DNA of 64,000 bases, from contig NZ_CP032100.1 of assembly GCF_003544815.1 (NCBI RefSeq), forward strand, positions 2,356,001 to 2,420,000, read 5' to 3'. The notes below the pieces were generated by a model. The model saw only the letters and a list, made by a program, of their open reading frames with translations. It ran no database searches and was not told the DNA's origin. Shown here piece after piece: positions 7,741 to 23,359 of this stretch. Position numbers and translations under genes: made by a program. The stretch comes from Arcobacter suis CECT 7833 (lineage in GTDB: Bacteria > Campylobacterota > Campylobacteria > Campylobacterales > Arcobacteraceae). Position 1 is the first letter of the stretch. The number at the start of each line of letters is the position of its first letter.

Positions 7741-8673
7741 AAAACCACTATAAATAATCAAACATATTGGTATGTAAATAACTGAAATTAGCGTACTTAA
7801 AAGAACAGTAAAAGAAGCTTTTTCAGGTCTTGCATTTAATAAAACTGCAAGTGTAACAGTATTCCCTGCAAGTGGTACAAGAGAAAATAAAAATAAAACT
7901 TTATAAATCTCTTCATTTAAAAAACCTATAAAATTTTTATCTAGAAAAATAATACATATCATAGAAACTGGCCAAAAAATGAATTTATAGAAATATGCAA
8001 TTCTTAAATATTTTATATCTACATCAGCTTTTAAATTAAAATTTTTCATTCCCATACCAAGCATCATCATTCCTAAAATCCCATAAGCCCATTTAAATCC
8101 TTCAAAATATGGAACTACAAATTCAGGTGTTTTAAAACCTAAAATATTTAAACAAAGACCTAAAATAAACGCATATAAAAGTGGAAGTTTGATTACTTTG
8201 ATAATAGATTGTCTTGCAGTAAAACTTCCCTTTGCAGTTACATAAAAACCTGTTGTATTTTCATATAATAATGAACCAAGTGTTGCGAAAATAAATAGAT
8301 TTGCTGATTCTGGAGTTAATAAAATCATAGATAAAGGAATACCAAAATATCCAGTATTTCCAGTTCCACAAGTAAATGATAAAGTATTTATACTTGCATC
8401 ATTCCAATCATTTTTATATCTTTTTAATATATAAAAAGCAATTGTTGTTCCAAGAAAAAAAACAAATAAAGGTAAAAAAAGTAGTTGTAAATTTATTTTT
8501 ATAGATAAAGTTGCAAAAAGAATTACAATTGGTCCTAAAATATATATAAGCAGTGTAGCTATAAAATTTCGTTTAATCCTAAAATATCTTGTTAGAACAT
8601 ATCCAATTACGATATTTAGATATAAAGGAGAAATTTTTCCTAATAAAATAAAAAATAGATTCATATAAATCAC
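7738..8673 (-). CDS. AEC-family permease (auxin efflux carrier type)
   Basis: A 311-aa inner-membrane protein with about ten helices arranged as two halves. The central FTCGTGNTGYFGIPLSMILL and the late SLVPLAGNTVTLAVLL segment are typical of the AEC/malonate-transporter family, where the Asn-Thr-Gly break lies near the substrate path. Bacterial members export or import small organic acids; the substrate here is unknown. It stands alone, converging on the NlpC/P60 pair. Confidence 0.85.
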   Translation of the reverse strand: MIYMNLFFILLGKISPLYLNIVIGYVLTRYFRIKRNFIATLLIYILGPIVILFATLSIKINLQLLFLPLFVFFLGTTIAFYILKRYKNDWNDASINTLSFTCGTGNTGYFGIPLSMILLTPESANLFIFATLGSLLYENTTGFYVTAKGSFTARQSIIKVIKLPLLYAFILGLCLNILGFKTPEFVVPYFEGFKWAYGILGMMMLGMGMKNFNLKADVDIKYLRIAYFYKFIFWPVSMICIIFLDKNFIGFLNEEIYKVLFLFSLVPLAGNTVTLAVLLNARPEKASFTVLLSTLISVIYIPICLIIYSGF

Positions 8674-8827
8674 TTAAAATAATTTAGGATAATTGTAACT
8701 AATAATCATAAAAATAAAGTAAATACACAATTCTTAAATCTAGGAAGCAGAAAGAGTACGAAGCTTGTGCATCTACTAATATTTCAAAGAATTTTATAAA
8801 AACAAAATGATATATATATGATTTTTT

Positions 8828-10117
8828 TTATAAACCTAAATAGTTTGATAAAATAAATAGACAAAAAACACAAATCAAATACATTTTAAAAGCATAAAAA
8901 ATATTTAATCTAAATATCTCTTTTGCAGCAAAATCATATCTTGCAACAACAGTTAGATTTAATCCTGAAAATGGTGAAGTTGAAACAGTTGTTGACCAAG
9001 CCATCAAAAAAGTAAGTGCTAAAAGAGTATGATTTACTCCACTTAAAAAATCTCCTATTATTGCAATAGTTATGATTGGATGGATTCCAACAAAAGCTAA
9101 AATAATAAATATCAAAAGTAATATAGAAGCTATTTGCCAATCAAAGATTTCAAAGGGTAACTCTAAATTCATGCCAATTAATATAGAACTAATAAAAATA
9201 CCAAACATTCCTGCAACCAAAAAAAGTGCCATTTCTGTTTTCATTTTTGGTAGTTCATCACTTATATAAAAAGCAAATTTAAAATAAGATTGGATTAAAC
9301 CTTTTTTTACTGGTAATATTAATAAAGACATCAATAAAGAATAAGTAGAAATCAAAACAATCACTTTGATATTTGGGAAAAAATAGTTAGTAATTAAAAC
9401 TAATAAAGCCAACACAAATGGTAAATATAAACTTTCAAAAGATAAAGGATAACCTCTAAATTCGTTAATATTAAACTCCTTATTATTAAGCACTTCGTAA
9501 TATGTAATTAAAAAAGCCAATATTGACAAAACTATTCCATTTAATAAAATAATTGAAGTATCCAATTTAGGAGCATATGTAATAGCAGCTGCAAATGCTA
9601 CAAAAAATGGTGACCAATACGCATCACTTGCAAATGCTCTTGTTAATAAAACAACTTGAGCATTACTTAAAGGTGCTTTTTTGTACATCTTATCAGCTAC
9701 TAAAATAAGAGAAGATATATTTATTACTGAACCAAAAAGATGAACACTTAAATATGTTTTTATAAAAGATTTTTTGCCCTTTGGAAGTTGAGAAGTTTTT
9801 TCTTTTTTTGGGTTTGCAATAAGTCTTAAAAAACCGACTGCAATTAACAGAGTTAATAAATATTGATTTACTGTAAATACTTTTGTTAAATCTATTTTAA
9901 AGTCATTTAGATAAGAAATAAAAAAAGCTAAAAAACTTAATATCAATAAAACAATAATGATTTTCTTATTTTTTATTGAAGGAAAAAGTATTAAAAATGA
10001 AATCCAAGCAAAAACTCCCGCAATAATCAATAACTTTTCATTAAAAAAATAAGCATATAAGGTAGTTAAAAAAGAAAAAAAGATTAATAATCCTGATATG
10101 TTAAATAAAAATTGCAT
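8828..10117 (-). CDS. Polytopic membrane protein, probable ion/organic-acid transporter
   Basis: A 429-aa protein with about eleven membrane helices. The segment ASDAYWSPFFVAFAAAITY and the late AWSTTVSTSPFSGLNLTVV look like the re-entrant polar hairpins of the IT (ion transporter) superfamily, which includes ArsB, DctM and citrate carriers. I cannot assign a substrate. The 154-base gap on its 3' side holds no gene I can support. It is divergent from the broken maf gene. Confidence 0.6.
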   Translation of the reverse strand: MQFLFNISGLLIFFSFLTTLYAYFFNEKLLIIAGVFAWISFLILFPSIKNKKIIIVLLILSFLAFFISYLNDFKIDLTKVFTVNQYLLTLLIAVGFLRLIANPKKEKTSQLPKGKKSFIKTYLSVHLFGSVINISSLILVADKMYKKAPLSNAQVVLLTRAFASDAYWSPFFVAFAAAITYAPKLDTSIILLNGIVLSILAFLITYYEVLNNKEFNINEFRGYPLSFESLYLPFVLALLVLITNYFFPNIKVIVLISTYSLLMSLLILPVKKGLIQSYFKFAFYISDELPKMKTEMALFLVAGMFGIFISSILIGMNLELPFEIFDWQIASILLLIFIILAFVGIHPIITIAIIGDFLSGVNHTLLALTFLMAWSTTVSTSPFSGLNLTVVARYDFAAKEIFRLNIFYAFKMYLICVFCLFILSNYLGL

Positions 10118-10175
10118 TTAGTTTTATCTCTTTATTTTATATTATAAATTTCAAATGAATTATATTCAAATTGAG

Positions 10176-10181
10176 TATAAT
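10176..10181 (+). promoter_or_regulatory. Candidate -10 box of the host maf gene
   Basis: TATAAT lies 20 bases before the TTG start of maf, and AAAGG at 10191-10195 is correctly spaced (6 bases) for that start. No convincing -35 box is seen. Confidence 0.5.
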
Positions 10182-10201
10182 CCAAATAAAAAAGGCTTAA
10201 T

Positions 10202-10669
10202 TTGATTAGACTTGGTTCAAATTCATCAACACGTGCATTGATTTTAAAAAATTTTGGTATAGATTTTATTCAAAATGGTGGAGATTTTGATGAAGATTCT
10301 ATAACTACAACAAATCCTAAATCATTTTGTTATGAAGCAACAAAAGGAAAGTTTAATGAACTTTATAAAAAATATGGAATAAAAGATATACCTTTGTTGG
10401 TTGCTGATTCTGTTGTAACTTGTGAGGGAAAACTTTTACGAAAAGCAAAAGATTTAGCCGATGCAAAAGCTATGCTTGAACTTCAAAGTGGAAATAAAAC
10501 TTCTGTAATTACTTGTATGATTTACAAATCAAAAGAAAAAGAACTAATCGATATATCTATTACAACTTATGAATTTGAATCTTTTGATAAAAAACATATG
10601 CAAGAATATTTAGATTCAGGTGAGTGTTTTGGAAAAGCAGGAGCTATAAAGATACCCTTAAGTCTTTAA
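10202..10669 (+). pseudogene. maf: 5' part of host maf, cut by the mobile element
   Basis: Maf proteins are nucleotide pyrophosphatases that clear non-canonical nucleotides. This fragment begins at TTG 10202 (IRLGS, AAAGG upstream) and encodes the first ~149 residues up to GECFGKAGAI. The frame then enters foreign DNA and stops at 10669 after KIPLSL (155 aa in all). The missing 32-residue end is found intact 11.5 kb away at 22218. Joining the two gives 181 codons, exactly the length of the complete copy carried inside the element. The truncated product lacks the C-terminal segment and is probably not functional. Confidence 0.93.
10653..10663 (+). repeat. Left terminal inverted repeat of the element
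   Basis: TACCCTTAAGT lies immediately inside the left junction. Its partner at the right end, read on the other strand, is TACCCTTTAGT: 10 of 11 bases agree. It is probably the recombinase binding site next to the crossover. Confidence 0.75.
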
Positions 10670-10671
10670 CT

Positions 10672-10774
10672 TATGGACATTCTTTAAAGCCTATCTTTTC
10701 TATATTATTTAATTTCTAGTATGTCCATAGAATTTAAATAGATATGGACACTTTTTATTTTATATATGTCCATA
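10672..10774. repeat. Four copies of TGTCCATA in alternating orientation at the left end
   Basis: The 8-mer occurs at 10672-10679 (minus), 10722-10729 (plus), 10743-10750 (minus) and 10767-10774 (plus). The last two form a 9-bp inverted pair (ATATGGACA/TGTCCATAT) with a 16-base spacer. A further copy lies at the right end. Four copies within 103 bases is far above chance for this base composition, so they are likely binding sites for an element-encoded protein. They lie between the junction and the 3' end of the receiver-phosphorylase gene. Confidence 0.7.
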
Positions 10775-10787
10775 TTATATACTTTTT

Positions 10788-12017
10788 TTATTTACTCTTT
10801 ATAAAACTTCGAGCATATTCATATAAGAATTGTGCACTCGTATATGCGGCATAATTTTGAAAACCATCATTTTTTTCTCTATCAGCATAGTCACACACAG
10901 ACTTTATTATAAGAGGGTAAGGTCTTTCATGAGTAGCATGATTTGCAGCATAAACTAGTCCATATGCTTCCATTTCTATACCTACCATTTTCCGTGATTG
11001 CTTTTGTATTTCACTTGTGATATCTTCGTCTGCTATTACTGCTGCACCCGAAGCGATAGGACCTACATGTACATTTAAAACAGTTGAAATTGTTTGGTGT
11101 GTCCAAGATTCACGAATTTTATTAAGTAACCTAGAATCTTTTGCCATTTGAGCTATTTCATGACTAATATCGTCATCTAGTGGTTCTTGCTTAGGATCAA
11201 TTTCAAAAACTTTTCCATCATCTGTCTCTTTAAATTTCCCTGAACCTGAATCCCATGAAGGACTTGCAACTAGGATATCTCCAAGATTTATATTTTCTCC
11301 TTTAATAGCAGCGGCAATACCAGTCATAGCCAAATACCTAGGTCTAAAATATTCAATCATTTGTGTAGATAGTACAGCAGTTGGTACCATTCCCATTTTA
11401 TTAATAGAGATAGCAACCACTTTTAATTGCTTATCACCAAAATCAAAAACTGTTTCAATAAATGGTAATTTAGAGTTTGGCATCTCAACTTTACGCCATT
11501 TACTAGATAAAAGTTCAATTTGTCTAAATTCTGGATCATTTAGTGCACATATAATCCCTAAATCATATTTGTAATCTGTTGAATTATGCGTTGATTGTAA
11601 GTTATTATTGATTAAAGCTAAATTTTTAATTAATATTTTTTTCCACTCATCACCTGTTTCATCATAAAAAATCATATTAAACATATCACTGTTTAGCTGT
11701 TCTCTATACTCATCATATAATTCTTTGTATTCTGTAATAGAGATAATATGTGTAGGTATATTATAAATTTGAGGTCTTTGTGTTAACTGATATATAAAAT
11801 CAAAACCAGCACTTTTAACTGCTTTTTCTCCACCTCTTTTAGGTACTTGTATATCTGCTATAAATAAGTCATACTTATGCTTCTTTAATTCATCTTTTGC
11901 ATATTTTAAATCACTTACGACATCAATATCATCTTTTATTAAAAATTCTACTGCATCTAAAGTTTCCATGATAGAGCAAGCTTTATCATTATTATCCTCA
12001 AGTAGAAGTATTCTCAT
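10788..12017 (-). CDS. dtcC: Receiver-nucleoside phosphorylase effector (DtcC-like, Detocs)
   Basis: A 409-aa fusion. Residues 1-130 form a response-regulator receiver with acidic residues E7/D8 and phospho-acceptor D55 (FIADIQVP). Residues 150-405 form a purine-nucleoside-phosphorylase/MTA-SAH-nucleosidase fold with TGIAAAIKGE at 232-241, the ribose-binding type GIEMEAYG at 346-353, and the base-binding acid D376 in KSVCDYAD. In Detocs the matching effector DtcC, once phosphorylated, cleaves ATP to adenine and ribose triphosphate and stops phage growth. It overlaps the upstream stand-alone receiver gene by 20 bases, so the two are coupled. No lysine is obvious after beta-5 of the receiver (IFYDE instead of a KP-type motif). 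The role is inferred from architecture and gene order. Confidence 0.85.
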   Translation of the reverse strand: MRILLLEDNNDKACSIMETLDAVEFLIKDDIDVVSDLKYAKDELKKHKYDLFIADIQVPKRGGEKAVKSAGFDFIYQLTQRPQIYNIPTHIISITEYKELYDEYREQLNSDMFNMIFYDETGDEWKKILIKNLALINNNLQSTHNSTDYKYDLGIICALNDPEFRQIELLSSKWRKVEMPNSKLPFIETVFDFGDKQLKVVAISINKMGMVPTAVLSTQMIEYFRPRYLAMTGIAAAIKGENINLGDILVASPSWDSGSGKFKETDDGKVFEIDPKQEPLDDDISHEIAQMAKDSRLLNKIRESWTHQTISTVLNVHVGPIASGAAVIADEDITSEIQKQSRKMVGIEMEAYGLVYAANHATHERPYPLIIKSVCDYADREKNDGFQNYAAYTSAQFLYEYARSFIKSK

Positions 12018-12471
12018 TGTTCTTCCTTATATATTCATTTAATCTATTTTCTAATTTTTCTTGCCAACCAATTAATCCATTGTGATAGTAAATAATTTCT
12101 TCAAATATCTCTCCATATGAAATTTTTAATTCTTTTTCAAGTTCAGAAAAAGTTACTTCATCTTCTCCAAAAGTTTCAAATTGAGTCATAACAACTACAG
12201 GCATTATCAAATCTCTTCTAATCATTTTACTCATGATTTCTTTTCCTGCAAAGACTTTTATTCTACCACCATTCTCTTCAATAGAGATATCATAAGTTGG
12301 CATTGTCATATCAAGAATAACTAAATCAAATAACTCATGTTGAATACATTTTAAAGAGCTTTGATAAGAGTGTCGTTCTGATATTTCAAATTTATCATTA
12401 AATTTTGTAATAATAAATGATTTGATTCGTTCACGTTTATTAATATCATCATCAGCAATCAATATTTTCAT
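11998..12471 (-). CDS. dtcB: Stand-alone response-regulator receiver (DtcB-like, Detocs)
   Basis: A 157-aa single-domain receiver with an acidic cluster D7-D8-D9 and phospho-acceptor D54 in VILDMTMP; there is no output domain. In Detocs, DtcB is a phosphate buffer that drains stray phosphate from the kinase so that the ATP-cleaving effector is not switched on without infection. The gene overlaps the kinase gene by 20 bases at its start and the effector gene by 20 bases at its end, giving three genes with linked translation. The receiver carries an insert after D54 (the NGGRIKVFAGKE region) and lacks an obvious beta-5 lysine. Confidence 0.83.
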   Translation of the reverse strand: MKILIADDDINKRERIKSFIITKFNDKFEISERHSYQSSLKCIQHELFDLVILDMTMPTYDISIEENGGRIKVFAGKEIMSKMIRRDLIMPVVVMTQFETFGEDEVTFSELEKELKISYGEIFEEIIYYHNGLIGWQEKLENRLNEYIRKNNENTST

Positions 12472-15400
12472 AATAAAGTCCTTCCCTTTCTAAAATTATC
12501 TCTGAGTAAAAGTATTTTTTATCAAGATACTTTAATTTTATGCTTGTTTTACAAAATAAATCTGTATTTAAAATTTTAATAATTTTATAAAACCCACTTC
12601 CTCCTTCTTTTCGTACCTTTTCCATTCCTTGACGTATATTTAAATCGTTTTCTAACTGATTAACATAAGTAATTCTCTCCTCTGTACATGTTTTTTCATC
12701 TATATCATTAATACATATAAATTTACATTGATTACTTTCAAAATTAATAGTTATTTTAATAGAGTTTTCTTCAAGTCCAGACCTTTGAATACAGTTATCA
12801 AAGATTGTATAAAAAATTGTAACAAAATTGTTCAAAGTAATGCCCTTAAACATATAATCTAAAGAACTAATTTTAGTCTCCATATTTTTATGTGGATAAA
12901 TATTCTCAATCATATTTCTTGCAATATCAATAGCAAGGTCTAAAGTATAGTCTTGGGTATTAAATGTTTTTGAACGTTTAAACCAATTTGATACTGTAAC
13001 TAATGAATTTAAAAGCTCTGTTCTAGATTTGGTAATTGACTGATCTAATTCTTTATATTTACCATCACTATTCATATTTGCAATCCTTTTTTGCAAGACG
13101 TCAAAAATTCGATTATATTTAGGCATTAGTACATTATTTATATTTGTTCTAATAACCTCTAAATTCTCCTCTGTTACTTCCCAAAGCTTTGAGAAAATTA
13201 ATTCAGTAAACTCTTCATAAGTAGTTTTAGGATGTATATGAGATTCTAAATCCTCTAGTTCATGTGTTCCAAATATATAGGCAAACATTCCGTTATCAAA
13301 CATTTTTGACTCTGTAAGAATTTGAATCCAGTTATTTTTAAGTATGTTAATCAATCTATCAGTACGTTTAGAAAAGTCATTAAGATATTTTAAAACATTT
13401 TCGAGATTTTCTTCATCATAATAATATTTATCTATCCAATATTCATTGTCTTTATACACATTTGTTTTTTCATTTCTAAGTGTTATAAGGTGTTCCGCCT
13501 CTAAAGGTTTACGTAATAATCCTGATAAAGTACCATGTCGTATATTTACACTTAAATAAGTATCTAATCCATAATCACTATTAGTTGTAAACAAATCCCG
13601 TATATGGTAAAAAATTTTCCAGAATACCATCTGCCTATCATTTGTAGTAATTTGAATCATTACCCCATCATCACCCTCAATCTCGATGTAATCGTTTTTT
13701 TTATCTTGCTTATCAGTTGTTAAAAGCTTCATATATCGAGTGTAAGACTCTTTAAGTTTCAACTCTGAAATCTTCTTTATACCTTCAATATCAACATAAA
13801 TTTTACTTTGTTCTATTTCAGACATCTTCTTATTAATAAAAAGCTTTGCAGTATATTCTTTAATCTGATTTGAATATATATCATGGTTTCTAGAATCTAA
13901 TTCAATAAGAATTTGACATATTTTAATACGTTCCTCATATAACTCATTAGAGGAATAAAACTCAGAACTTGTGTCCATAACATTAGGAATACATATATAA
14001 CGTAAAAAGTAAATAGATTTTTTCCGATTATGTACATCAATTTTTGATAAAAGCCCTTTAGGCTTTTCTAAATTGTATGTATATAATACGTCTTCATAAG
14101 TATTTTGAAGGTCTAGAAATATAAAACTATTTACTTTTAAATGTTTAATACAAATATCATATAAAATTGACAATGATAAAAAATCCTTAACTTTTATTCT
14201 TTCAAGTTTCATTTTCTGTATAATTTCACTAATTGGGAAAATTTTATAAAGATTATTATTTTCTATGTATTGTGAACTTATTAAACTAATACATTCATCT
14301 ATTCTATTAAGTTCTATTAAACATCGTATTTTACCCTTTAAGGAGTTTTGTATGTCAATATAATCAGTATCATCTGTCTCAAAAATCTCGTCATAAAGAG
14401 CTAATGCACTTTCAAATTGATTATTATTCTTTAAATATTTAGCAATATAATATTTTTCCCTTATTGTAGGTAGTTTAATATTTTTTATATCCTGGATCGT
14501 CAAATTATTATGTAATGCTTTAAATAACTGAGTAGTTTTTAAACTTCCATGCATATTTTCTATTTGATTTAAATATTTACTACCTTGATTATGAGTTAAA
14601 AAAACCTCGACTTTTTTAGGAGTATTAATAATAGAATTAAGTTTTGCAATGATAATATCTTTATGTATCGTATCACTATTATCATCATTATATGCATTAT
14701 GCAAGAAATCATAAAGTGTTGCACTCCAATGATGTGTAGAAAAACTATAAATTAACTTGCTTAAACTTAAATATGACTCATAAGATTTATCATTCTTCAA
14801 TAAAATATTATACATATTTTTAAGTATGTCATTTAAGAAAGTATTATCAACATTAGGGTATAAACTGCTATTTCTAATTAAACTCTTAATATATATTTCA
14901 CAAACCTCAATAATATATGGGTATCTATCTAATATTTTTTTAGAAAGTTTACTAGAAGTTAAATAATCAGCATTCGTATAATGTTCAAGTAGTATATTAA
15001 CATCTTTATCAAGATCACTATTTATTATATTGTTTTGATTATTATAGAAAAAGTGTAAATTATTTAAAAATACTTCATCAACATATTTATTTAAAATATC
15101 AATTGATTCTGAAAATATATCTTGATATTGTTCTTGATCTATTTGTTGAGCAACTTGTTTAAAAGAGATATATCTATCAAGAATAGAAGAGTCACTTTCA
15201 AAAGAAATTACATCAAAATAGCTTGAAATGGGTTCTATAGAACTACAGTTTAATCTGAAACTAACATAATTCATCAATTGAGGATTAAGTTTATAATTAC
15301 GTAAATCTTTGAACTTATCTTTAATATACTCTTCATATTGTTTTGAGTTCATATTTGAATCAATTTTATTGCTTGTAAAATCTACAAGAAGTTTCACTAC

Positions 15401-15919
15401 ACCATTTATGTTATCATTGTCTAAAATTGCGTTAACAAATTTCCTAAGCTCTGAAAAACCTTCAGCATAATTAATAAGAAGCATTTTATTTTCAATAAGC
15501 CACATTGAATAACCAAATTTAGACTCAATATCTTCTAAAATGCTATGTGCCGTTTCAAATTCGCCTTTTACAAAATTTATCTCAAACATGTGTCTCAAAG
15601 ACTCAAATTCTTTAAGTTCTCTTTTAAATATCTTTAAAACATTAGCTTCCCAATATACTGCATTATTAAGATTTGTAGCTGCAGAAAATGGAACATTTTG
15701 GTGTTTTAAATCAATAATTGTTTTTGGGAAAGGTTCATATACAATATACTTTTTAAATAATCTGATTTTATATAATCTTTCAATATTAGCTCTTATAAGA
15801 TGTTTACCCTTATTATCTGTATTATTAATAAAATTAAAAAAATTCAATTCTATTCTATACTTATCAAGTAAATCAATTTTTAATCTTTTAAATTCTGTCA
15901 ATTCTCTTTTTTTCTTCAT
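12452..15919 (-). CDS. dtcA: Large sensor with C-terminal histidine-kinase ATPase (DtcA-like, Detocs)
   Basis: A 1155-aa protein. The first ~750 residues are helical with repeat-like segments (for example AKYLKNNNQFESALALYDEI), consistent with TPR-type sensing. The C-terminus is a GHKL ATPase: N-box IFDNCIQRSG with N1042, an acidic ND near 1071, and a glycine-rich GGSGFYKII at about 1106. In Detocs, DtcA senses phage through its repeats and phosphorylates DtcB and DtcC. I see no canonical H-box (H-E-L-K/R-x-P) ahead of the N-box; ELLNSLVTVSNWF occupies about that place, so the phosphorylated histidine is unassigned. The ATG start at 15919 has AGAGGA upstream. The separate promoter region is 15920-16045. 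Confidence 0.83.
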   Translation of the reverse strand: MKKKRELTEFKRLKIDLLDKYRIELNFFNFINNTDNKGKHLIRANIERLYKIRLFKKYIVYEPFPKTIIDLKHQNVPFSAATNLNNAVYWEANVLKIFKRELKEFESLRHMFEINFVKGEFETAHSILEDIESKFGYSMWLIENKMLLINYAEGFSELRKFVNAILDNDNINGVVKLLVDFTSNKIDSNMNSKQYEEYIKDKFKDLRNYKLNPQLMNYVSFRLNCSSIEPISSYFDVISFESDSSILDRYISFKQVAQQIDQEQYQDIFSESIDILNKYVDEVFLNNLHFFYNNQNNIINSDLDKDVNILLEHYTNADYLTSSKLSKKILDRYPYIIEVCEIYIKSLIRNSSLYPNVDNTFLNDILKNMYNILLKNDKSYESYLSLSKLIYSFSTHHWSATLYDFLHNAYNDDNSDTIHKDIIIAKLNSIINTPKKVEVFLTHNQGSKYLNQIENMHGSLKTTQLFKALHNNLTIQDIKNIKLPTIREKYYIAKYLKNNNQFESALALYDEIFETDDTDYIDIQNSLKGKIRCLIELNRIDECISLISSQYIENNNLYKIFPISEIIQKMKLERIKVKDFLSLSILYDICIKHLKVNSFIFLDLQNTYEDVLYTYNLEKPKGLLSKIDVHNRKKSIYFLRYICIPNVMDTSSEFYSSNELYEERIKICQILIELDSRNHDIYSNQIKEYTAKLFINKKMSEIEQSKIYVDIEGIKKISELKLKESYTRYMKLLTTDKQDKKNDYIEIEGDDGVMIQITTNDRQMVFWKIFYHIRDLFTTNSDYGLDTYLSVNIRHGTLSGLLRKPLEAEHLITLRNEKTNVYKDNEYWIDKYYYDEENLENVLKYLNDFSKRTDRLINILKNNWIQILTESKMFDNGMFAYIFGTHELEDLESHIHPKTTYEEFTELIFSKLWEVTEENLEVIRTNINNVLMPKYNRIFDVLQKRIANMNSDGKYKELDQSITKSRTELLNSLVTVSNWFKRSKTFNTQDYTLDLAIDIARNMIENIYPHKNMETKISSLDYMFKGITLNNFVTIFYTIFDNCIQRSGLEENSIKITINFESNQCKFICINDIDEKTCTEERITYVNQLENDLNIRQGMEKVRKEGGSGFYKIIKILNTDLFCKTSIKLKYLDKKYFYSEIILEREGLYYENIDC

Positions 15920-16045
15920 ATTTCCTCTAATAATATATAATCAATAGTATAGCAAACTATATATTATTTATAGTTATTATTAAATAATTTATTAACTCTA
16001 TTTAATAAGGAAAAACTTTTTTATTGACATCTTTAAGCTAAATTT
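15920..16045 (-). promoter_or_regulatory. Promoter region of the Detocs-type operon
   Basis: This 126-base AT-rich gap between the element maf and dtcA holds AGAGGA just before the dtcA ATG, a TATACT-like -10 on the minus strand near 15950, and a small inverted repeat TATAG-CAAA-CTATA at 15948-15961 overlapping that -10. The repeat could be an operator; this is inference only. Confidence 0.45.
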
Positions 16046-16591
16046 TTATAAATGCGGTAATAGTTTTTCAATAGTTAGTCCCATTGCACAAGACTCATAT
16101 CCAATATATTCTTTTATATAAGGCTTACAAAACCCTTCTACCATGATAGCTCCAGCCTTACCAAAGCATTCACCTGATTTTATATAGTCTTTAACATCCT
16201 GTTCATCAAATTTTTCAAATTGATATGTTGTAATAGAAATATCAACAAGCTCTTTTGTTTTACTTTTATAAATCATACAAGTAATCACTGAAATTTCATT
16301 ACCACTTTGAAGTCCAAGCATTCGTCTTGCATCATCTTCATCTTTTGCTTTTCTAAGTAATTCACCATTTGTTGTAACTACACTATCTGCAACAAGTAAA
16401 GGCATATCTTCAATTCCATATTTTTCATACAATTCTTTAAATTTACCTTTTGTTGCTTCATAACAAAAAGATTTAGGATTAGTTGTTGTAATTGAATCTT
16501 CATCAAACTCCCCACCATTTTGAATAAAATTTATTCCAAAGTTTTTAAGAATCAATGCCCTTGTAGGTGATTTTGAACCTAATCTAATCAT
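16046..16591 (-). CDS. maf: Complete Maf-family nucleotide pyrophosphatase carried by the element
   Basis: A full 181-aa Maf protein, the same length as the reconstructed host gene and about 80% identical to its N-terminal part by eye (roughly 119 of 149 positions). It keeps IRLGS, ALILKNFGI, LLVADSVVT, the LRKAKD loop and GECFGKAGAI, as well as the end region missing from the broken host copy. It begins with ATG (the host used TTG), and the ATG overlaps the stop of the preceding 128-aa gene as ATGA. It is thus translated with the recombinase operon. The simple reading is a rescue gene that replaces the function destroyed by insertion. Confidence 0.93.
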   Translation of the reverse strand: MIRLGSKSPTRALILKNFGINFIQNGGEFDEDSITTTNPKSFCYEATKGKFKELYEKYGIEDMPLLVADSVVTTNGELLRKAKDEDDARRMLGLQSGNEISVITCMIYKSKTKELVDISITTYQFEKFDEQDVKDYIKSGECFGKAGAIMVEGFCKPYIKEYIGYESCAMGLTIEKLLPHL

Positions 16592-16974
16592 CTATAATTC
16601 CTATTAATGCTATTTTCTGGATGTTTATATTTTTCTATTTCTTTTTCTAATTCATTAATTGTTTCTAAATACATTAGCTCTCTATTTAAACTTTCATTAT
16701 ATAAAATCTCAACATTAATTTTATCTTGCTTTGTTTTTTCAAGTTTACCTTGTAGCTTTCGTACTCCTTGTGTACGTTTTGCTTCTGCCTCTAAAATATC
16801 AGTAATCAATTGCTCAAAGCCTTCTCGACTTCTTTTAATACTACCCCGCTTTCTACAGGCTTCAAGTGCAACAGTATCATTATTTATTTTTGAATCTTTT
16901 GGAATATTTAATGGTTTATTATTTATAAGACGTTGTAATGCATCATAATAATAATCAATTGCTTTTCGTGCCAT
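16588..16974 (-). CDS. Small coiled-coil transposition accessory protein (TnpC-like)
   Basis: A 128-aa basic protein. Residues ~25-60 (TVALEACRKRGSIKRSREGF) resemble the DNA-binding N-terminus of small proteins found next to Tn554-type recombinases; residues ~60-120 form a long charged coiled coil. Tn554 TnpC has about the same size and genetic position, and in that transposon it affects the efficiency and orientation of insertion. It lies 10 bases after the 675-aa recombinase gene and overlaps the element maf by 4 bases. No catalytic residues are expected. Confidence 0.75.
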   Translation of the reverse strand: MARKAIDYYYDALQRLINNKPLNIPKDSKINNDTVALEACRKRGSIKRSREGFEQLITDILEAEAKRTQGVRKLQGKLEKTKQDKINVEILYNESLNRELMYLETINELEKEIEKYKHPENSINRNYR

Positions 16975-16984
16975 ATTATCTCCT

Positions 16985-19012
16985 CTATTTATTAATCAAT
17001 TTTTTTCTATATTTTTTCAATTCTTCAAGATCGGCTATTTCAGTTCTGTACTCAACAGTATCACCATAATTATTCTTATATAAATATTCAATACTCTTTT
17101 TTTGTTGAATAATCATATTATCTATTTTTTCTTTTTTAATTATTGCCCCTGTACAACTAGCACATGCGTAAATACTATGTACTAATCTATAGTCACATGG
17201 TTCAGATGATACACAAGCTCCTAATGCAGTTTCTTTATATATCATCTCACCACTCTTAAATCGTTTCATTAGATTCTTACGATTTTCTTTAAAAAAAGGT
17301 AGAAACTCTTCTTGATTATTATGCTTATTATGTTTTTCTATATAACTACCGTGTACACCAAATAATTCTTCATCAGAAAAAAGTACATCTCTAACATAAT
17401 ACAAAGTCTGTAACTCAGTTTTAGTTTCTTGATATTCTCTACTTAAAACTTTTTCTGGTTTAAAAAGATTTTCTGCGTTATGAGAATTATTTCCATAATA
17501 CATTGTCATATCTATAAATAAATGTTTCATTTGTTGTTGTAGTCCACCAATAGAAACCATGCCACTTTGTAATGCATAAACAACTAAACTCCTACGATAT
17601 TGATGATAAGAGAAATTCCACACATTTCCAATCTCAATAGATTCATCTGTTTTCAGTGGATTTAATTTTTCCAATTCTTTCTTATCATCTTCCGTAATTG
17701 TTATCTGCAATATATCCAATGGCAATTCATCTTTTACTTGTGCATCTCTCATCCATAAAGATGATTTTAGAATAATATTATTCTCATCCTTTGGTTTTAA
17801 AAATCCAGTCTTTGGAAAAAGAGGGAAAGATTCAAAATCTATTTCATATATTTTTGTTATCACATGATTTAATTTATTTAATATATTAATAAGACTCTCT
17901 ACTCGTGAAGATGTTATCCATGCAGTTTCTTCAAAAGAAGGTGTCAATTTAGTTGTCTTTCCTAATAGTTTTAAAACAGTTCCACTTTCTGTTAGCGTTG
18001 TTATCAAGCAATTATTATTTAATGATAAAGCTTCATTTCTTCTCATCCCACTATATGTTAATAGTTGATGAAAACATGTAGAATAAATTAAATTTAAAAA
18101 TTTAGCAAAACTTCTACGATTTTTAACTTCATATATACTAAATAATTTACTTAATTGAAATTGACTTACTGCATCAGTCCATTTTACATACTGACTAGGG
18201 ATAAGATTATATTTAGTAATCATAGCCATTGTTGAACCGAAGCCACGGTTTGATAAAAATTGTTCAAAAAAATCACTTAGTGAATTAATATATTGATTAA
18301 TATTATCTATATGTTCCCATCGTTTTTTGATGCCATAAAGGTAAATTCTTGATGGTATCAATAAAGTTTGCTCACTATTTTCTTCATTTTTTTTTCTTGA
18401 ATATTCCACAAACTGTTTAATCTCATTCGTGAAAACACTCTGAATATTATGAATAATATTATAACTTTCACATAAATATTTAAGTAACCTTGCAAGAAAT
18501 CTTAATTTTGTAGTGTCTTTTCTGTTAACATATAAATATTTTAAAATAAACTTTTCTGAAAATAAACTTTTCATTAGGCTAATATTATTTTGTTCAGAGA
18601 ATTGACTCAAAGGTCTTATTGCTGAATAGAAATAGTTATACAAAGTCAAAACAGACAATTGACTACTCTTATTACCTCTACCCATAATCAACAATATAAG
18701 CATAATTTTTTTAGCTATTTTAGAATCATCTAATCTTAATGTTCCAAAGTTTATTTTATCTTGATAAGTAGAAATAACAGAATAAGCACTAAAATCCCAT
18801 ATGTCATCTTGGAATCTAGATAAAGTATTTCCCCTATTGTCTCGTGATATAACAAAAGTATTTTGAATTTCTTCTATTTTAAAATTTTCATCAATGTATA
18901 GTACATCAGATTTAGCTTTTTCATTAGGAGCTAATTCATCAAATATATAATAAGTTTGTGCTGTCACTTGAGAACTCCCATATCTAATAATTTTTTGAAT
19001 TTGTGTTCCCAA
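16985..19012 (-). CDS. Tyrosine recombinase, third of the trio (TnpB-like)
   Basis: A 675-aa phage-integrase-fold protein with a long N-terminal region and a catalytic part at ~310-510: R324 in SGMRRNEALSL, H470-x-x-R473 in YHQYRR, H497 and probable nucleophile Y506 in MTMYYGN. The C-terminus has four cysteines (GAC-x5-C then CASC) that may bind zinc, as seen in large Tn554-type recombinases. The set of catalytic residues looks complete. The start at 19012 lies 49 bases inside the 615-aa gene, so the two are probably coupled. Confidence 0.85.
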   Translation of the reverse strand: MGTQIQKIIRYGSSQVTAQTYYIFDELAPNEKAKSDVLYIDENFKIEEIQNTFVISRDNRGNTLSRFQDDIWDFSAYSVISTYQDKINFGTLRLDDSKIAKKIMLILLIMGRGNKSSQLSVLTLYNYFYSAIRPLSQFSEQNNISLMKSLFSEKFILKYLYVNRKDTTKLRFLARLLKYLCESYNIIHNIQSVFTNEIKQFVEYSRKKNEENSEQTLLIPSRIYLYGIKKRWEHIDNINQYINSLSDFFEQFLSNRGFGSTMAMITKYNLIPSQYVKWTDAVSQFQLSKLFSIYEVKNRRSFAKFLNLIYSTCFHQLLTYSGMRRNEALSLNNNCLITTLTESGTVLKLLGKTTKLTPSFEETAWITSSRVESLINILNKLNHVITKIYEIDFESFPLFPKTGFLKPKDENNIILKSSLWMRDAQVKDELPLDILQITITEDDKKELEKLNPLKTDESIEIGNVWNFSYHQYRRSLVVYALQSGMVSIGGLQQQMKHLFIDMTMYYGNNSHNAENLFKPEKVLSREYQETKTELQTLYYVRDVLFSDEELFGVHGSYIEKHNKHNNQEEFLPFFKENRKNLMKRFKSGEMIYKETALGACVSSEPCDYRLVHSIYACASCTGAIIKKEKIDNMIIQQKKSIEYLYKNNYGDTVEYRTEIADLEELKKYRKKLINK

Positions 19013-20811
19013 TATGGATGTAGTTTTTCATAATGAAATACTTCATTCTTAATACTCTCCATATCCTGAATTGATATTCTTTTAGTTTTTAGTGCTAATT
19101 CTTTTAGCTCATCAATTCTTTCTAAAAGTCCTTCATACACTGAGAGGAATTGTTTTTCATCAAATGCAACAGCTCTTGTCTCAAGTAAAATAAACTGTAA
19201 ACTAAAAATTTTTAGTAGGTCTTGTTTATCAAGATGGCAACGGTAATGAGGACAGAATAAACATGTTTGCTTATTATTACAATCAACTGGAAATTCATTA
19301 TTTATAACAATTTCTTCTGTTTTACTACATTGACCTATAATAGTTTCAACTTGTACATTATTATTTTCAAATACTCTCTCATTCAATGTACTAAAAAAAT
19401 CTGTTATTTGTTTGTTTGATACTTCTTCACGTTGTGCAGTATAATGTTTTAATATAGTTGAGACTTTGTTTTGCATCATATTTGAAGCTTGAATTAGCCC
19501 ATGTTTTCTAACAACATAATCTGTTTTATTTATACGAAGAATCTTAGAATTTAATGCAGGAAGTCTTGGATCTAATGTTTTTTTAAAATATTTATTAATA
19601 AATCCACTCCATGAACCATCCAATTGTGTTTTAGTCAATTTTGCATTTACTCCATATGATTGAAAGAACAAATACTTATAAGTTCGGTTTTGCAACATAT
19701 ATTTTCTTAATACAATATATTTTTTAAACATAGAATGAAATTTCTTTTCTATTTCAAATTCAACTAATTTATTTGCTCTATTCTTAAAAACAATAAACTT
19801 TTGTCTTTCCGTACTTTGCTCATAATCATCATGCCATCTAAGTTTTATTGCACTACTACCATTCATACCAGTATTTGTTAAAAAAAGCATGTAAAATGCA
19901 CGAATTGCAAATTGACCTAATTTATATCTGAATTTATGGTTTGGATTTGAAGATTCTTCTAATAAACTGGTAATATATTTAATATGAGTATTGATTATTC
20001 CTTTGGATTTTTGAGGAAATAATTTCCTTAGTTCGTCATAAGTATATACTCTACCTTCTAGTTGGTTGAAACCTATAGGAGAAGAAGATTTTGTATCTAT
20101 AGAATAAAATATATTTTGAGTAGGTAAAATATTATATATTTTATTTGTTAACTCTAGTTGAAAAGGATACGTTTTTTTTTCAATCAAGAAGTCACTAATC
20201 TGATTAAATATAGATTTGTAAAATTCTAAATGGTAAGCATTTGATTCCAAAGAAGATGGTTTTGTTCTTCTTTGAGGTATACCTTCACCATGAAGAGAAA
20301 TAAGGGAAGCACTATTTGCAATAATCATATGTTTATCATCATGTATTATTGTAAGTAGTTGTCGTACACATTTTTGTAAATCCATACAATGTCTTAAACT
20401 TTTACCTTGTCTTAGCGATCCTTTTAGATAAATACTATAAGCCATGTATGTCTCAGAAGCTTCTTTTATTGTTTTTATTTCAAAACTATTATCAAAACAC
20501 CAAGTACAAAATTGTTTTAATCTTTTATCAAAAGATAGAAAAGTATTTATTGATTTTCCAATTTGAATATATTGAATTAAAAGTTCAAAAACACATTTCA
20601 CTACAATCTCAAAAGTTTTCATGTATGTTTTTTCTTCAATAAAAAATGACTTCCCAGTTGATTTATATTTTCCATAACAAAATTTAAAAAGAGGTATATT
20701 ATAATTTTTATATTCTACTACCAACTTTTTATAATCTAATATACTTGTTGGATATTCTATTTTTAAATATTCTTCTAGATTTATAAAACTGGGATTAAAT
20801 TTTACCATCAT
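18964..20811 (-). CDS. Tyrosine-recombinase-like protein, second of the trio, possibly degenerate
   Basis: A 615-aa relative of the integrase family. The box I region reads TNTGMNGSSAIKLRW, with N317 where the conserved catalytic arginine normally stands. A box II-like segment RKHGLIQASNMM (436-447) and a possible nucleophile Y457 in LKHYTAQ remain. A cysteine-rich tail (CNNKQTCLFCPHYRC) suggests a zinc-binding end. It may be a structural or DNA-binding partner rather than an active recombinase. The gene begins 4 bases inside the end of the first recombinase gene. Confidence 0.8.
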   Translation of the reverse strand: MMVKFNPSFINLEEYLKIEYPTSILDYKKLVVEYKNYNIPLFKFCYGKYKSTGKSFFIEEKTYMKTFEIVVKCVFELLIQYIQIGKSINTFLSFDKRLKQFCTWCFDNSFEIKTIKEASETYMAYSIYLKGSLRQGKSLRHCMDLQKCVRQLLTIIHDDKHMIIANSASLISLHGEGIPQRRTKPSSLESNAYHLEFYKSIFNQISDFLIEKKTYPFQLELTNKIYNILPTQNIFYSIDTKSSSPIGFNQLEGRVYTYDELRKLFPQKSKGIINTHIKYITSLLEESSNPNHKFRYKLGQFAIRAFYMLFLTNTGMNGSSAIKLRWHDDYEQSTERQKFIVFKNRANKLVEFEIEKKFHSMFKKYIVLRKYMLQNRTYKYLFFQSYGVNAKLTKTQLDGSWSGFINKYFKKTLDPRLPALNSKILRINKTDYVVRKHGLIQASNMMQNKVSTILKHYTAQREEVSNKQITDFFSTLNERVFENNNVQVETIIGQCSKTEEIVINNEFPVDCNNKQTCLFCPHYRCHLDKQDLLKIFSLQFILLETRAVAFDEKQFLSVYEGLLERIDELKELALKTKRISIQDMESIKNEVFHYEKLHPYWEHKFKKLLDMGVLK

Positions 20812-22118
20812 AATATCAAACTTTCTAAATATTCTTCAAATTCATTTTGAATAAATTGTTTTTGATTTTGTTTATTTCTGAAATTTAAATATCTTTCTGT
20901 TGTTAGTAAACTTTTATGAGGCATTCTTTCTTTTATTATGGATAATAATTCATATAGTGTCATTTCACCTTTTTCTACCATATATATTTTCGAATCTAAT
21001 AAATTCATTGCAAATGTAGCTCGTAAATCATGAAATCTGAATTTTAATTTTCCCTCTAACTCTCGATAAAGAGTTACACTAAGAAACTGTCTTATGGTAT
21101 TTCCATTAGGAATTGTTTTTGTATATATTCCAATATATTCATCATATTTAGATACATAATAGGGTGTACCTCGATTAGTTAAAAAAATATATTGGGATGT
21201 TTCATCTTTAAAGATGTGTTTTTGATTTTGAAAGCGTTTTTTATATCGTTCTGATTTTATATAAATTTGAATTTTTTGATATACCCAATTTGGCATTCGT
21301 AAAAAATATACAGTATCATTTTTAGTATCTACATCCGTTCCTAATCCAACTTTAATTGATAGATATTTCTCTTTTTCTGGATGTTGTCTCTCAAAATGCT
21401 TTAAACGTAATGTACATACAGTTTGTATTCTTGCACCAGTTGTTAAAGCGATTAAGCAAGCTAATGTCATTTCTATATTTCCTAATCTGTTCAATGTTCT
21501 GAATAATAAACTTTGTTCTTCTTGAGTAAGAGGTTTTAATTTCCCTTCATCTTGAATGTATTCATCACTATCAATCCCATAAAAAGAAGAGATTTTTAAT
21601 AAATCTTTTGTTTCTACTTTCTTACTTTGTTTAAACCCATATTGATCTTTATAAGATATATAAGCATCTTCTTTTTCCCATAATGGGAATTTAAATTTTA
21701 ATTTTAGAATATTTTGTAAATATTCATAAAAATTAATTACTACAGACATTTTCTTTTTTACCGTTTTATCTGTGTTTATACCATTTTCTAATTTCTTTTG
21801 AAGAAAAAATCTATACATATAAGTTGGTCTTCTTACTCTTCTTTTCTCATTTAAATAATCAACATTATTTTCCAAACTCCATTCAAAAAATGCTTTTAAT
21901 TCTTTCGCAACACTATAAAGAGTTGAGTAATGAGGTGGATTTGGAGATTTAATTTTATATAACACATATAAATTTGCATATTTCCATAAAGTACCATCCT
22001 CATTAATTAATATAGGGAAATGGTTATAATAGCTTATATAAAAATCATCATTATATACCTTTGTTTTATCTGGTAGTAATTTATAAATTTCTAGATGAGG
22101 AATTACATTTATTGTCAT
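20808..22118 (-). CDS. Tyrosine recombinase, first of the trio (TnpA-like)
   Basis: A 436-aa integrase with all the main catalytic residues visible: R230 in TTGARIQTV, H363-D-L-R366 in FRFHDLRATF, H401 in MPHKSLLTTERYL and nucleophile Y410. The N-terminal ~150 residues form the helical arm/core-binding region. It is the promoter-proximal gene of the right-end operon and lies 100 bases from the right terminal repeat. It overlaps the next gene by 4 bases. It is the best candidate for the enzyme that makes the first strand exchange. Confidence 0.9.
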   Translation of the reverse strand: MTINVIPHLEIYKLLPDKTKVYNDDFYISYYNHFPILINEDGTLWKYANLYVLYKIKSPNPPHYSTLYSVAKELKAFFEWSLENNVDYLNEKRRVRRPTYMYRFFLQKKLENGINTDKTVKKKMSVVINFYEYLQNILKLKFKFPLWEKEDAYISYKDQYGFKQSKKVETKDLLKISSFYGIDSDEYIQDEGKLKPLTQEEQSLLFRTLNRLGNIEMTLACLIALTTGARIQTVCTLRLKHFERQHPEKEKYLSIKVGLGTDVDTKNDTVYFLRMPNWVYQKIQIYIKSERYKKRFQNQKHIFKDETSQYIFLTNRGTPYYVSKYDEYIGIYTKTIPNGNTIRQFLSVTLYRELEGKLKFRFHDLRATFAMNLLDSKIYMVEKGEMTLYELLSIIKERMPHKSLLTTERYLNFRNKQNQKQFIQNEFEEYLESLIL

Positions 22119-22153
22119 AATTAATCTTTTTATTTTAACTTTATCCTAATCAT

Positions 22154-22168
22154 ATTATAATGTCCATA
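22154..22168 (-). promoter_or_regulatory. Candidate promoter of the recombinase operon with a TGTCCATA box
   Basis: On the minus strand TATAAT (22159-22154) lies 36 bases ahead of the first recombinase ATG. Immediately upstream is TATGGACA (22168-22161), the same 8-mer repeated at the left end. A protein bound there would sit in the -10/-35 spacer, suggesting feedback control of transposition; this is inference. Confidence 0.5.
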
Positions 22169-22203
22169 AAATTAAAATATATGAGTAATACTTATATACA
22201 TAA

Positions 22204-22214
22204 ACTAAAGGGTA
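22204..22214 (-). repeat. Right terminal inverted repeat of the element
   Basis: ACTAAAGGGTA, which on the minus strand reads TACCCTTTAGT and matches the left-end TACCCTTAAGT at 10 of 11 positions. Host maf sequence resumes within a few bases on its outer side. Confidence 0.75.
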
Positions 22215-22217
22215 ATA

Positions 22218-22316
22218 ATGGTTGAAGGATTTTGTAAACCATATATAAAAAATGTAATTGGATATGAAAGCACTGCAATGGGATTATGTGTAGAAAAATT
22301 AAAATATTATCTTTAG
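22218..22316 (+). pseudogene. maf: 3' remnant of host maf
   Basis: Thirty-two codons plus TAG encode MVEGFCKPYIK...IGYES.AMGL..EKL, the missing C-terminus of the host Maf; about 24 of 32 residues match the same region of the element-borne copy. AAGGG lies shortly upstream of its ATG, so a tiny peptide could be made, but nothing suggests a function. The stop codon lies inside a terminator stem. Confidence 0.92.
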
Positions 22317-22336: not shown

Positions 22337-23359
22337 TTAGTTAAACTCTGGCTTTGCAGTATCTATTGAAGATTCTGGAAGTTGAGGATAAGAAATAGCT
22401 GGTTTTGCACCTTTTAATGTTTTTAAGAAAGTTACAATTTGAGCTGCATCTGCATCAGAAATTTCAATTCCTAATTGAACAGAACCCATCTCTTTTACTG
22501 CTTCATTTAATGACCAAATTTGTCCATTATGGAAATATGGTGCAGTTTCTGTAATATTTCTTAGAGTTGGCGTTTTAACCATTCCTTTTGCATCACCTTT
22601 GAAATCACCTACATTTGTAAATTTATATTTAGAAGCTACTTCAAATGCTTGCATTGTTCCACCTAATGCAATTCCAGTATGACAAGAAGTACAACCTTTA
22701 TCTATAAATAAAGTTAAACCTTTTTTCTCTTCAGCAGTTAATGCTTTCTCTTTACCATTTAAGAAATCATCAAATTTTGAAGGAGTAACTAATGTTTTCT
22801 CAAAAGTTGCAATAGTTGCTGTTATTGTTGCAAAATCAACTTTTACATCTTTTCCGTATGCAACTTTAAATTCACTTACATATTCTGGAATTGAATTTAT
22901 TCTTTGCTCCACTAATGATGCAGGTGCTGCCATTTCTGGACCTGCTTGAACTGGACCTTGAGCTTGATCAGCTAAATGAGGACTTCTTCCATCCCAAAAT
23001 TGTGCTTTAAAAAATACTGAGTTATAAACTGTTGGAGAGTTTAAGTGATGAGGATTTGCCGTCCATCCATGACCAATAGCAGCAGGAATTCCATCTGCTC
23101 CACCTAAACCTAAGTTATGACATGTATTACAAGAAATCAGTCCACTTTTTGAAAGTCTTGGATCAAAATATAATTTCTTACCTAATTCAACTTTTTCTTT
23201 CGTGATTGGATCTTTTTTGTCATCAATTAATTTCATTAATTCAACTTTAGAAGCAGGAATTGCCTCAAGACCACTTTGTTTCGCTTTTGTCAATAGTGAA
23301 CTACTTGCAAATAATGTACTTGCACCTAATATACATACAGCTAATGTTATTTTTTTCAT
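22337..23359 (-). CDS. ccpA: Di-haem cytochrome c peroxidase (CcpA/MauG family)
   Basis: Periplasmic enzyme that reduces hydrogen peroxide with electrons from cytochrome c. The 340-aa protein has a signal peptide (to about residue 18, ending LFAS) and two haem c attachment sites, C77-N-T-C80-H81 and C223-T-S-C226-H227, the spacing expected of bacterial di-haem peroxidases. It stands alone between the maf terminator and a 262-base AT-rich gap in which I see no gene. Confidence 0.93.
   Translation of the reverse strand: MKKITLAVCILGASTLFASSSLLTKAKQSGLEAIPASKVELMKLIDDKKDPITKEKVELGKKLYFDPRLSKSGLISCNTCHNLGLGGADGIPAAIGHGWTANPHHLNSPTVYNSVFFKAQFWDGRSPHLADQAQGPVQAGPEMAAPASLVEQRINSIPEYVSEFKVAYGKDVKVDFATITATIATFEKTLVTPSKFDDFLNGKEKALTAEEKKGLTLFIDKGCTSCHTGIALGGTMQAFEVASKYKFTNVGDFKGDAKGMVKTPTLRNITETAPYFHNGQIWSLNEAVKEMGSVQLGIEISDADAAQIVTFLKTLKGAKPAISYPQLPESSIDTAKPEFN

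Follow-up and report, generated by a model that had tools for sequence, protein, structure and literature searches.

A GInt-type element that splits a host maf gene carries a complete maf of its own, and spare copies of target genes recur in related elements

Results

The insertion site in host maf

The window, i.e. the whole stretch of 64,000 nt analyzed here, is part of a complete 2.64 Mb genome and contains a maf gene that is interrupted by an inserted element (Table 1). The exact repeat at the two flanks is ATAA only (GCT-ATAA-AGAT / GTA-ATAA-TGGT). Fused at this common ATAA, the flanks read GGAGCTATAATGGTTGAAGG, which encodes G-A-I-M-V-E-G in frame, just as in the uninterrupted maf genes of the genus. 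The 5′ part of the host gene continues into the element as a truncated open reading frame of 155 aa that ends at 10669. It shares 89-93% identity with maf of the nearest relatives and 78% identity, over residues 1-151, with the complete maf carried by the element. The TTG start of host maf, already pointed out in the preliminary description, is normal, since 27 of 29 same-genus relatives likewise use TTG. The gene is present in 30 of 31 same-genus genomes, its frame is uninterrupted in all 29 relatives that were read, and the neighbors located at 8828-10117 and 22337-23359 in the window directly flank maf in many of them. A whole-genome search revealed a single intact maf, the carried copy, while a second maf exists only as the 5′ and 3′ pieces that flank the element. 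The arrangement is thus not a product of chance.

The preliminary description called the service provided by maf essential-like. This proved too strong: a search of 88 good genomes from the family detected no maf in 14 of them, and the gene seems to be dispensable in some family members. Mutants of model bacteria that lack maf are viable. Split maf matches in two further family genomes (G484 and G485) were rejected as insertions because the pieces lie at contig ends with ordinary neighbors and look like assembly breaks. Searches of 397 genomes of the phylum with GinB and with GinA each returned two relatives besides the window, and no second element inserted in maf was found among them.

Table 1. 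Features of the element and its surroundings in the window, and spare target genes in related elements
Feature	Position or locus	Strand	Remarks
Interrupted host maf, 5′ part	10202-10649	+	TTG start, residues 1-149; Pfam/NCBIfam Maf
Left junction core ATAA	10646-10649	.	context GGAGCT[ATAA]AGATACCC
Inserted element	10650-22218	.	11,569 bp with the core counted once; flanks are the two host maf halves
Cargo PDC-M60C, response-regulator and nucleoside phosphorylase domain protein	10788-12017	-	PADLOC 4.7e-116; Pfam PNP_UDP_1
Cargo PDC-M60B, response regulator	11998-12471	-	PADLOC 6.2e-39
Cargo PDC-M60A, 1155 aa	12452-15919	-	PADLOC 1.1e-101
Carried complete replacement maf, 181 aa	16046-16591	-	begins with ATG and has its own AGGA motif; full-length match to NCBIfam PRK04056, 9.9e-78
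GinD-like small protein, 128 aa	16588-16974	-	30-47% identity to fourth gene of related operons
Third recombinase, 675 aa	16985-19012	-	catalytic R-K-H-R-H-Y present; four-Cys motif; residue count over 77 homologues
Second recombinase-like protein, 615 aa	18964-20811	-	first catalytic Arg absent (TGMN replaces TGxR)
First recombinase, GinA-like, 436 aa	20808-22118	-	R230/K266/H363/R366/H401/Y410 conserved; Pfam Phage_integrase
Right junction core ATAA (22215-22218) and host maf 3′ part	22215-22316	+	reads IMVEGFCKPYIKNVIGYESTAMGLCVEKLKYYL-stop
Spare maf	window
Spare endonuclease I	G458 (and relative G341)
Spare umuC	L029
Spare short HExxH-containing protein	Acinetobacter L032, L033, L036
Spare Na/H exchanger	L035
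Spare glyoxalase I	L086
Spare metallophosphoesterase	L094

The recombinase operon and the type of element

All genes of the element are read from the minus strand, in the order three recombinase-type genes, the 128-aa gene, maf and three PDC-M60 genes. The start of ginA lies 96 nt from the right end. The operon is as tightly packed as originally described: the genes for the 436-aa and 615-aa proteins overlap by 4 nt (20808-20811), those for the 615-aa and 675-aa proteins share 49 nt (18964-19012, assuming a start at the TTG of 19012), and the gap between the 675-aa and the 128-aa gene is 10 nt. Catalytic residues of the first and third recombinases are conserved across 77-85 homologues, R324 of the third in 77 of 77; the second protein is without the first arginine and retains R426 and Y457. 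The GinD-like protein occurred in all 30 related genomes searched. Among viral contigs, no relative of this protein was detected and the GinA alignment gave one weak match; phages likewise yielded one weak match.

Three genes for tyrosine recombinases, followed by a small GinD-like gene in one operon at one end, a maf gene overlapping the ginD stop, and an AT-rich left end of about 140 bp beside the last cargo gene together constitute the layout of a GInt. The strict GInt label was nevertheless not applied. Here, it is the second gene product that has no first catalytic arginine, and the residue is retained in the third, whereas in GInts it is missing from GinC (Bardaji 2017, PMC5385486). Because the degenerate recombinase is the second gene and not GinC, a difference that could be one of naming only, we call the element GInt-type and use the names ginA to ginD in this sense, leaving strict family assignment aside. 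The gene order also agrees with that of strand-biased circularizing integrative elements (SE), which consists of intA, tfp (no catalytic motif), a large intB and a small srap, with the second gene here keeping the two residues named above; SE form their own Tfp/Srap sequence clusters and have terminal motifs C/C′ of 13-19 bp (PMC10214605). Classification as a Tn554-like transposon was rejected, since such elements have TnpA, TnpB and a TnpC without a third recombinase-type gene and three recombinase-type genes are present here.

TGTCCA/TGGACA hexamers cluster at the ends of the element; the terminal 120 bp or so on the left contain four of them (10674-10767), and one lies near the right end (22161). 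In related loci, the hexamer was found within 260 nt upstream of ginA in 31 of 71 cases, compared with 216 of 1795 control windows. It is probably a recombinase-binding motif common across phyla.

The region 10788-15919 constitutes a candidate anti-phage system, PDC-M60, with A, B and C in order. Other defence-like cargo was noticed by eye in related elements, namely a SIR2-like gene of 308 aa in G458 and restriction-like genes near G341.

The carried maf

The Maf protein encoded on the element scores well above the curated cut-off of PRK04056 (259.9 bits, cut-off 161) and also above that of TIGR00172 (129, cut-off 117). Its ATG and the stop codon of the small gene share an ATGA, in full agreement with the preliminary description, whose coordinates (16588-16974) delimit the GinD-like small gene and not maf itself; the overlap amounts to 4 nt (A-TGA), the junction on the coding strand is ATTAATAGGAATTATAGATGATTAGA, and the small gene ends with the codons for N-R-N-Y-R-stop. 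An AGGA motif is located 7 nt before the ATG, inside the small gene, and the carried maf therefore has its own ribosome-binding-like site. Compared with other maf genes, dN is 0.15-0.20, dS 0.67-1.4 and dN/dS about 0.1-0.25, and part of this low dN/dS may be older than the capture of the gene. Its closest protein match (84%) is a Maf from a different genus of the family, and its identity with the host copy is 78%. The synonymous distances are smallest to the host's own genus, and for this reason the donor is not settled; a tree gave no firm position for the carried maf, which forms a long branch. The proposal that maf is the target of the element is borne out: the host frame is split by the element, and the carried copy is complete and under constraint.

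Spare target genes in related elements

A scan of one genome per species provided 80 related loci, and more were added from plasmids and from genomes of the family. In 76 loci (54 non-redundant), ginA and ginD could be mapped and the slot behind ginD was analyzed. For the detection of spares, all open reading frames behind ginD were compared with the flank sequence before ginA. A spare homologue of a gene within 1.5 kb of ginA was present in 9 of 50 non-redundant elements, compared with 0 of 235 control bins, which covered 1.5-9 kb in five steps (Fisher p 8.3e-8). The other 41 of the 50 showed no spare; element ends are defined at few loci, such that more distant spares can have been missed, and the collection search is biased toward elements that resemble the one in the window. 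The spares belong to seven target families (Table 1). Both halves of the broken gene and a complete spare are visible in the window, L029, L032, L036 and G458. G341 has a clear 3′ half of the target, whose 5′ half is represented by a short stretch that shows the same motif when translated, and in L033, L035, L086 and L094 one target half was seen. The breaks hit conserved motifs, i.e., GAIMVEG in Maf, NNDGC in UmuC, the IHE of the HExxH motif and HGHLH in the phosphoesterase, and endonuclease I is broken immediately before EHxxPAH. At the protein level, spares and host targets differ by 12-66%.

Several elements split a gene and show no spare in the 18-26 kb read, the genes being those for YbdG in L040, L071 and L073, DUF808 in L093, a glyoxalase in L092 and DUF924 in L030 (names assigned by eye from sequence, with no family search). 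A spare is thus common but not obligatory. Weak cargo/flank matches of 15-16 residues in Acinetobacter L079-L081 and a short weak one in L034 were dropped, and a transposon-like match in L095 was excluded from the stricter count. No ssb-type targets were found near ginA.

L222, a Pseudomonas element that is more distantly related and interrupts umuC, carries a complete spare umuDC 203 nt behind ginD (gin-oriented 8559-10254), equipped with its own SOS-box-like sequence, CTGTATGTATATACAG. Within the DNA read, this element is the sole spare carrier among the 20 Pseudomonas loci of its set; other umuC-inserted relatives that were read, e.g., L218 and L223, showed no spare umuDC.

Two further observations concern genes next to the operon. 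In Aliarcobacter-like L016 (61-1149) and L171 (reverse complement 2594-3643), both on short contigs, a PDDEXK-like gene (DUF1016-type, by eye) lies on the ginA strand and stops about 10 nt short of ginA, in the slot taken by the spare endonuclease I gene in G458 and G341. In L213 (8968-9672, gin-oriented) and in the extension of L085 (~16111-16641), fragments of a YbdG-type mechanosensitive channel gene reside 0.4-0.6 kb behind ginD, and the other YbdG half does not adjoin ginA. These are possibly minimal elements in tandem at one site.

Co-inheritance, selection and the attachment core

Two pairs of related elements allowed spares, recombinase genes and broken host genes to be compared. Between G341 and G458, the spare endonuclease I genes share 90% identity with a dN/dS of 0.12, and the genes of the recombinase operon 89-94% with dN/dS of 0.10-0.17, compared with 46% for the broken host genes. 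Between L033 and L036, the values are 80% (dN/dS 0.11) for the spares, 83% for ginA and 41% for the broken host genes. In both pairs, the spares track the gin genes while the host targets differ, from which we conclude that spares are inherited together with the recombinases and evolve under constraint as genes.

The attachment core of the carried maf reads TATCATGG as opposed to TATAATGG at the host site. The spare core also differs from the host gene elsewhere: ATC replaces ATA in maf near codon 150, Ser replaces Gly in the NNDGC of UmuC, Met and Leu are swapped in IHE[M/L] (L032, L033 and L036), and the endonuclease I spare of G458 has FEFEH. Spares may have been altered at the core to escape insertion.

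Placement of the spares

Three of the nine spares lie inside the gin operon, those of the window and L094 after ginD and that of G458/G341 before ginA. The other six are found on the opposite strand, one of them (L029) 5.3 kb from ginD. In about 10 loci a same-strand gene is located no more than 30 nt from the ginD stop, and it matches the target only in the window (maf) and in L094 (metallophosphoesterase). The earlier expectation that the gene following the small, then TnpC-like, gene always corresponds to the target therefore fails; the slot mostly holds unrelated or opposite-strand genes. The common feature is the spare, and coupling to the operon is optional.

Discussion

We regard it as very probable that the GInt-type element that splits host maf supplies a Maf of its own, that the spare is a recurrent and selected trait, and that its placement in the operon is not the essential point. 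The element integrated inside the reading frame of host maf and brought along a full-length maf that was probably acquired elsewhere and not from the current host, and this gene would now supply Maf. A spare of the target gene family would render insertion into conserved coding sequence nearly harmless. The carried maf would accordingly have to be expressed and active, and sparing of the host would be the reason why it was kept. The position behind ginD would be one of several placements used by this group of elements.

In the preliminary description, coupling to recombinase expression was seen as the very purpose of the arrangement: by closing the operon with an essential-like gene, the element would force each new host to maintain transcription. 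In the window, the 4-nt overlap fits this idea; furthermore, the spare of L094 begins directly after the ginD stop (TGAATG) and that of G458/G341, which has the orientation of ginA, ends 1 nt ahead of it. We nonetheless consider it unlikely, because two thirds of the spares (six of nine) are on the opposite strand, the one in L029 at a distance of several kilobases, while about eight other related elements have unrelated same-strand genes equally tight behind ginD. The spare umuDC of L222, some 200 nt after ginD, has an SOS-box-like site of its own, and maf itself was not detected in all genomes of the family. The addiction-like reading is drawn from gene layout. An explanation at the level of DNA is less probable still. 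Here, the spare would be kept as a source of attachment sequence or a decoy, or as a homologous-recombination tract for new hosts. It does extend across the site at which the host gene is cut, and the target-like gene of Tn552-II contains an att copy (PMC12486829). However, the spares are complete frames with dN/dS of 0.11-0.12 between related elements, the carried core departs from the host site in the window, Acinetobacter, umuC and endonuclease I cases, and the protein divergence of 12-66% is too great for efficient homologous recombination in most of them. Least of all do we favor a chance capture of maf as ordinary cargo, with a merely coincidental match to the target. GInt cargo is indeed very diverse and often begins immediately before or after the ginD stop (PMC5385486), but the 9 of 50 elements with spares, against none in the 235 control bins, and the spread over seven target families make coincidence very improbable.

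How the carried maf is expressed is a separate step. It is likely co-transcribed with the gin operon, given the tight same-strand order, the lack of a terminator-like site and the analogy to GInt, where RT-PCR revealed a single ginABCD transcript that probably extends into the cargo (Bardaji 2017, PMC5385486). As the first cargo gene, maf would then be read from the gin promoter and probably be translated from its own ribosome-binding site inside ginD. Alternatively, the overlap may reflect compact packing, with maf transcribed mainly from a promoter of its own in ginD or by read-through, and we rate this as possible, though doubtful. The AGGA motif of maf is compatible with it, and spares located on the opposite strand in other elements necessarily depend on promoters of their own. 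Promoter-like matches do exist inside ginD on the minus strand (e.g., 16974-16945), as often as in shuffled sequence (47, with 50 expected). Against predominant expression from such a promoter stand the GInt RT-PCR result and a scan of the minus strand from ginA to maf, which revealed no terminator-like site.

In the usual view, mobile elements protect the host by landing beside genes or by restoring the end of a gene. Carriage of a spare would explain the use of conserved coding motifs as insertion sites. With some reservation, and at slightly less than even confidence, we propose that a whole spare which is inherited with the recombinases and altered at the core, and for that reason no target itself, is a general 'insurance' of multi-recombinase elements (GInt, SE, ILE, Tn554) that allows them to land in conserved, often catalytic motifs. 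Should this hold widely, the target of an element could be predicted from its spare and vice versa, and target prediction would become testable from sequence. Note also that spares leave diverged housekeeping 'duplicates' behind, which annotation may misread as ordinary paralogues.

Comparison with known systems

Islands that integrate into conserved genes such as dusA or trmE by means of classical integrases preserve the function of the host gene, as appears to be the case here. They supply only a short replacement gene end via att homology. The element in the window, in contrast, carries a whole diverged gene and leaves the broken copy behind.

Among multi-recombinase elements, GInts resemble the present one in the operon of three recombinase genes and a GinD-like gene at one end, in site-specific insertion targeted to genes, in cargo that follows from the ginD stop and in a single transcript that probably enters it. 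GInts are described with flanking imperfect direct repeats of 10-17 nt, from which the short exact ATAA found here may differ. A degenerate GinC takes the place of the degenerate second gene, and the GInt sections cited here describe no target replacement; their authors attribute survival of the targets to end-of-gene insertion or an outward promoter (PMC5385486). Excision of the GInt circle is described as requiring all four gin genes. SE share the succession of a recombinase, a degenerate recombinase-fold protein, a large recombinase and a small protein; they are known from Gammaproteobacteria and fall into separate sequence clusters (PMC10214605). ILE in Pseudomonas rulB also have three recombinases and a small gene, insert site-specifically within a gene and have been demonstrated to move (Rhodes 2014, PMC4542609). 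PCR detected no intact rulAB in ILE strains (PMC4542609), whereas the related L222 carries a spare umuDC. The portions of these publications on GInt, SE and ILE used here report no spare target copies (PMC5385486, PMC10214605, PMC4542609), and our literature search turned up no direct account of mobile elements that replace a whole gene.

The closest precedent is Tn552-II, a Tn554-like element (Wan 2025, PMC12486829), in which a recombinase operon is followed by a homologue of the target and then by cargo (tnpABC, the target-gene-like tgl, bla), rescue by tgl being suggested in one sentence. It differs in that it has TnpABC and not four gin genes, resides in Staphylococcus and has a yolD-like target, and, in the part of the paper cited, it stands as a single case for which neither co-inheritance nor selection is tested (PMC12486829). 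What our analysis adds to this precedent is the recurrence of spares over seven target families, their co-inheritance with the recombinases, the selection acting on them and the optional nature of their coupling to the operon.
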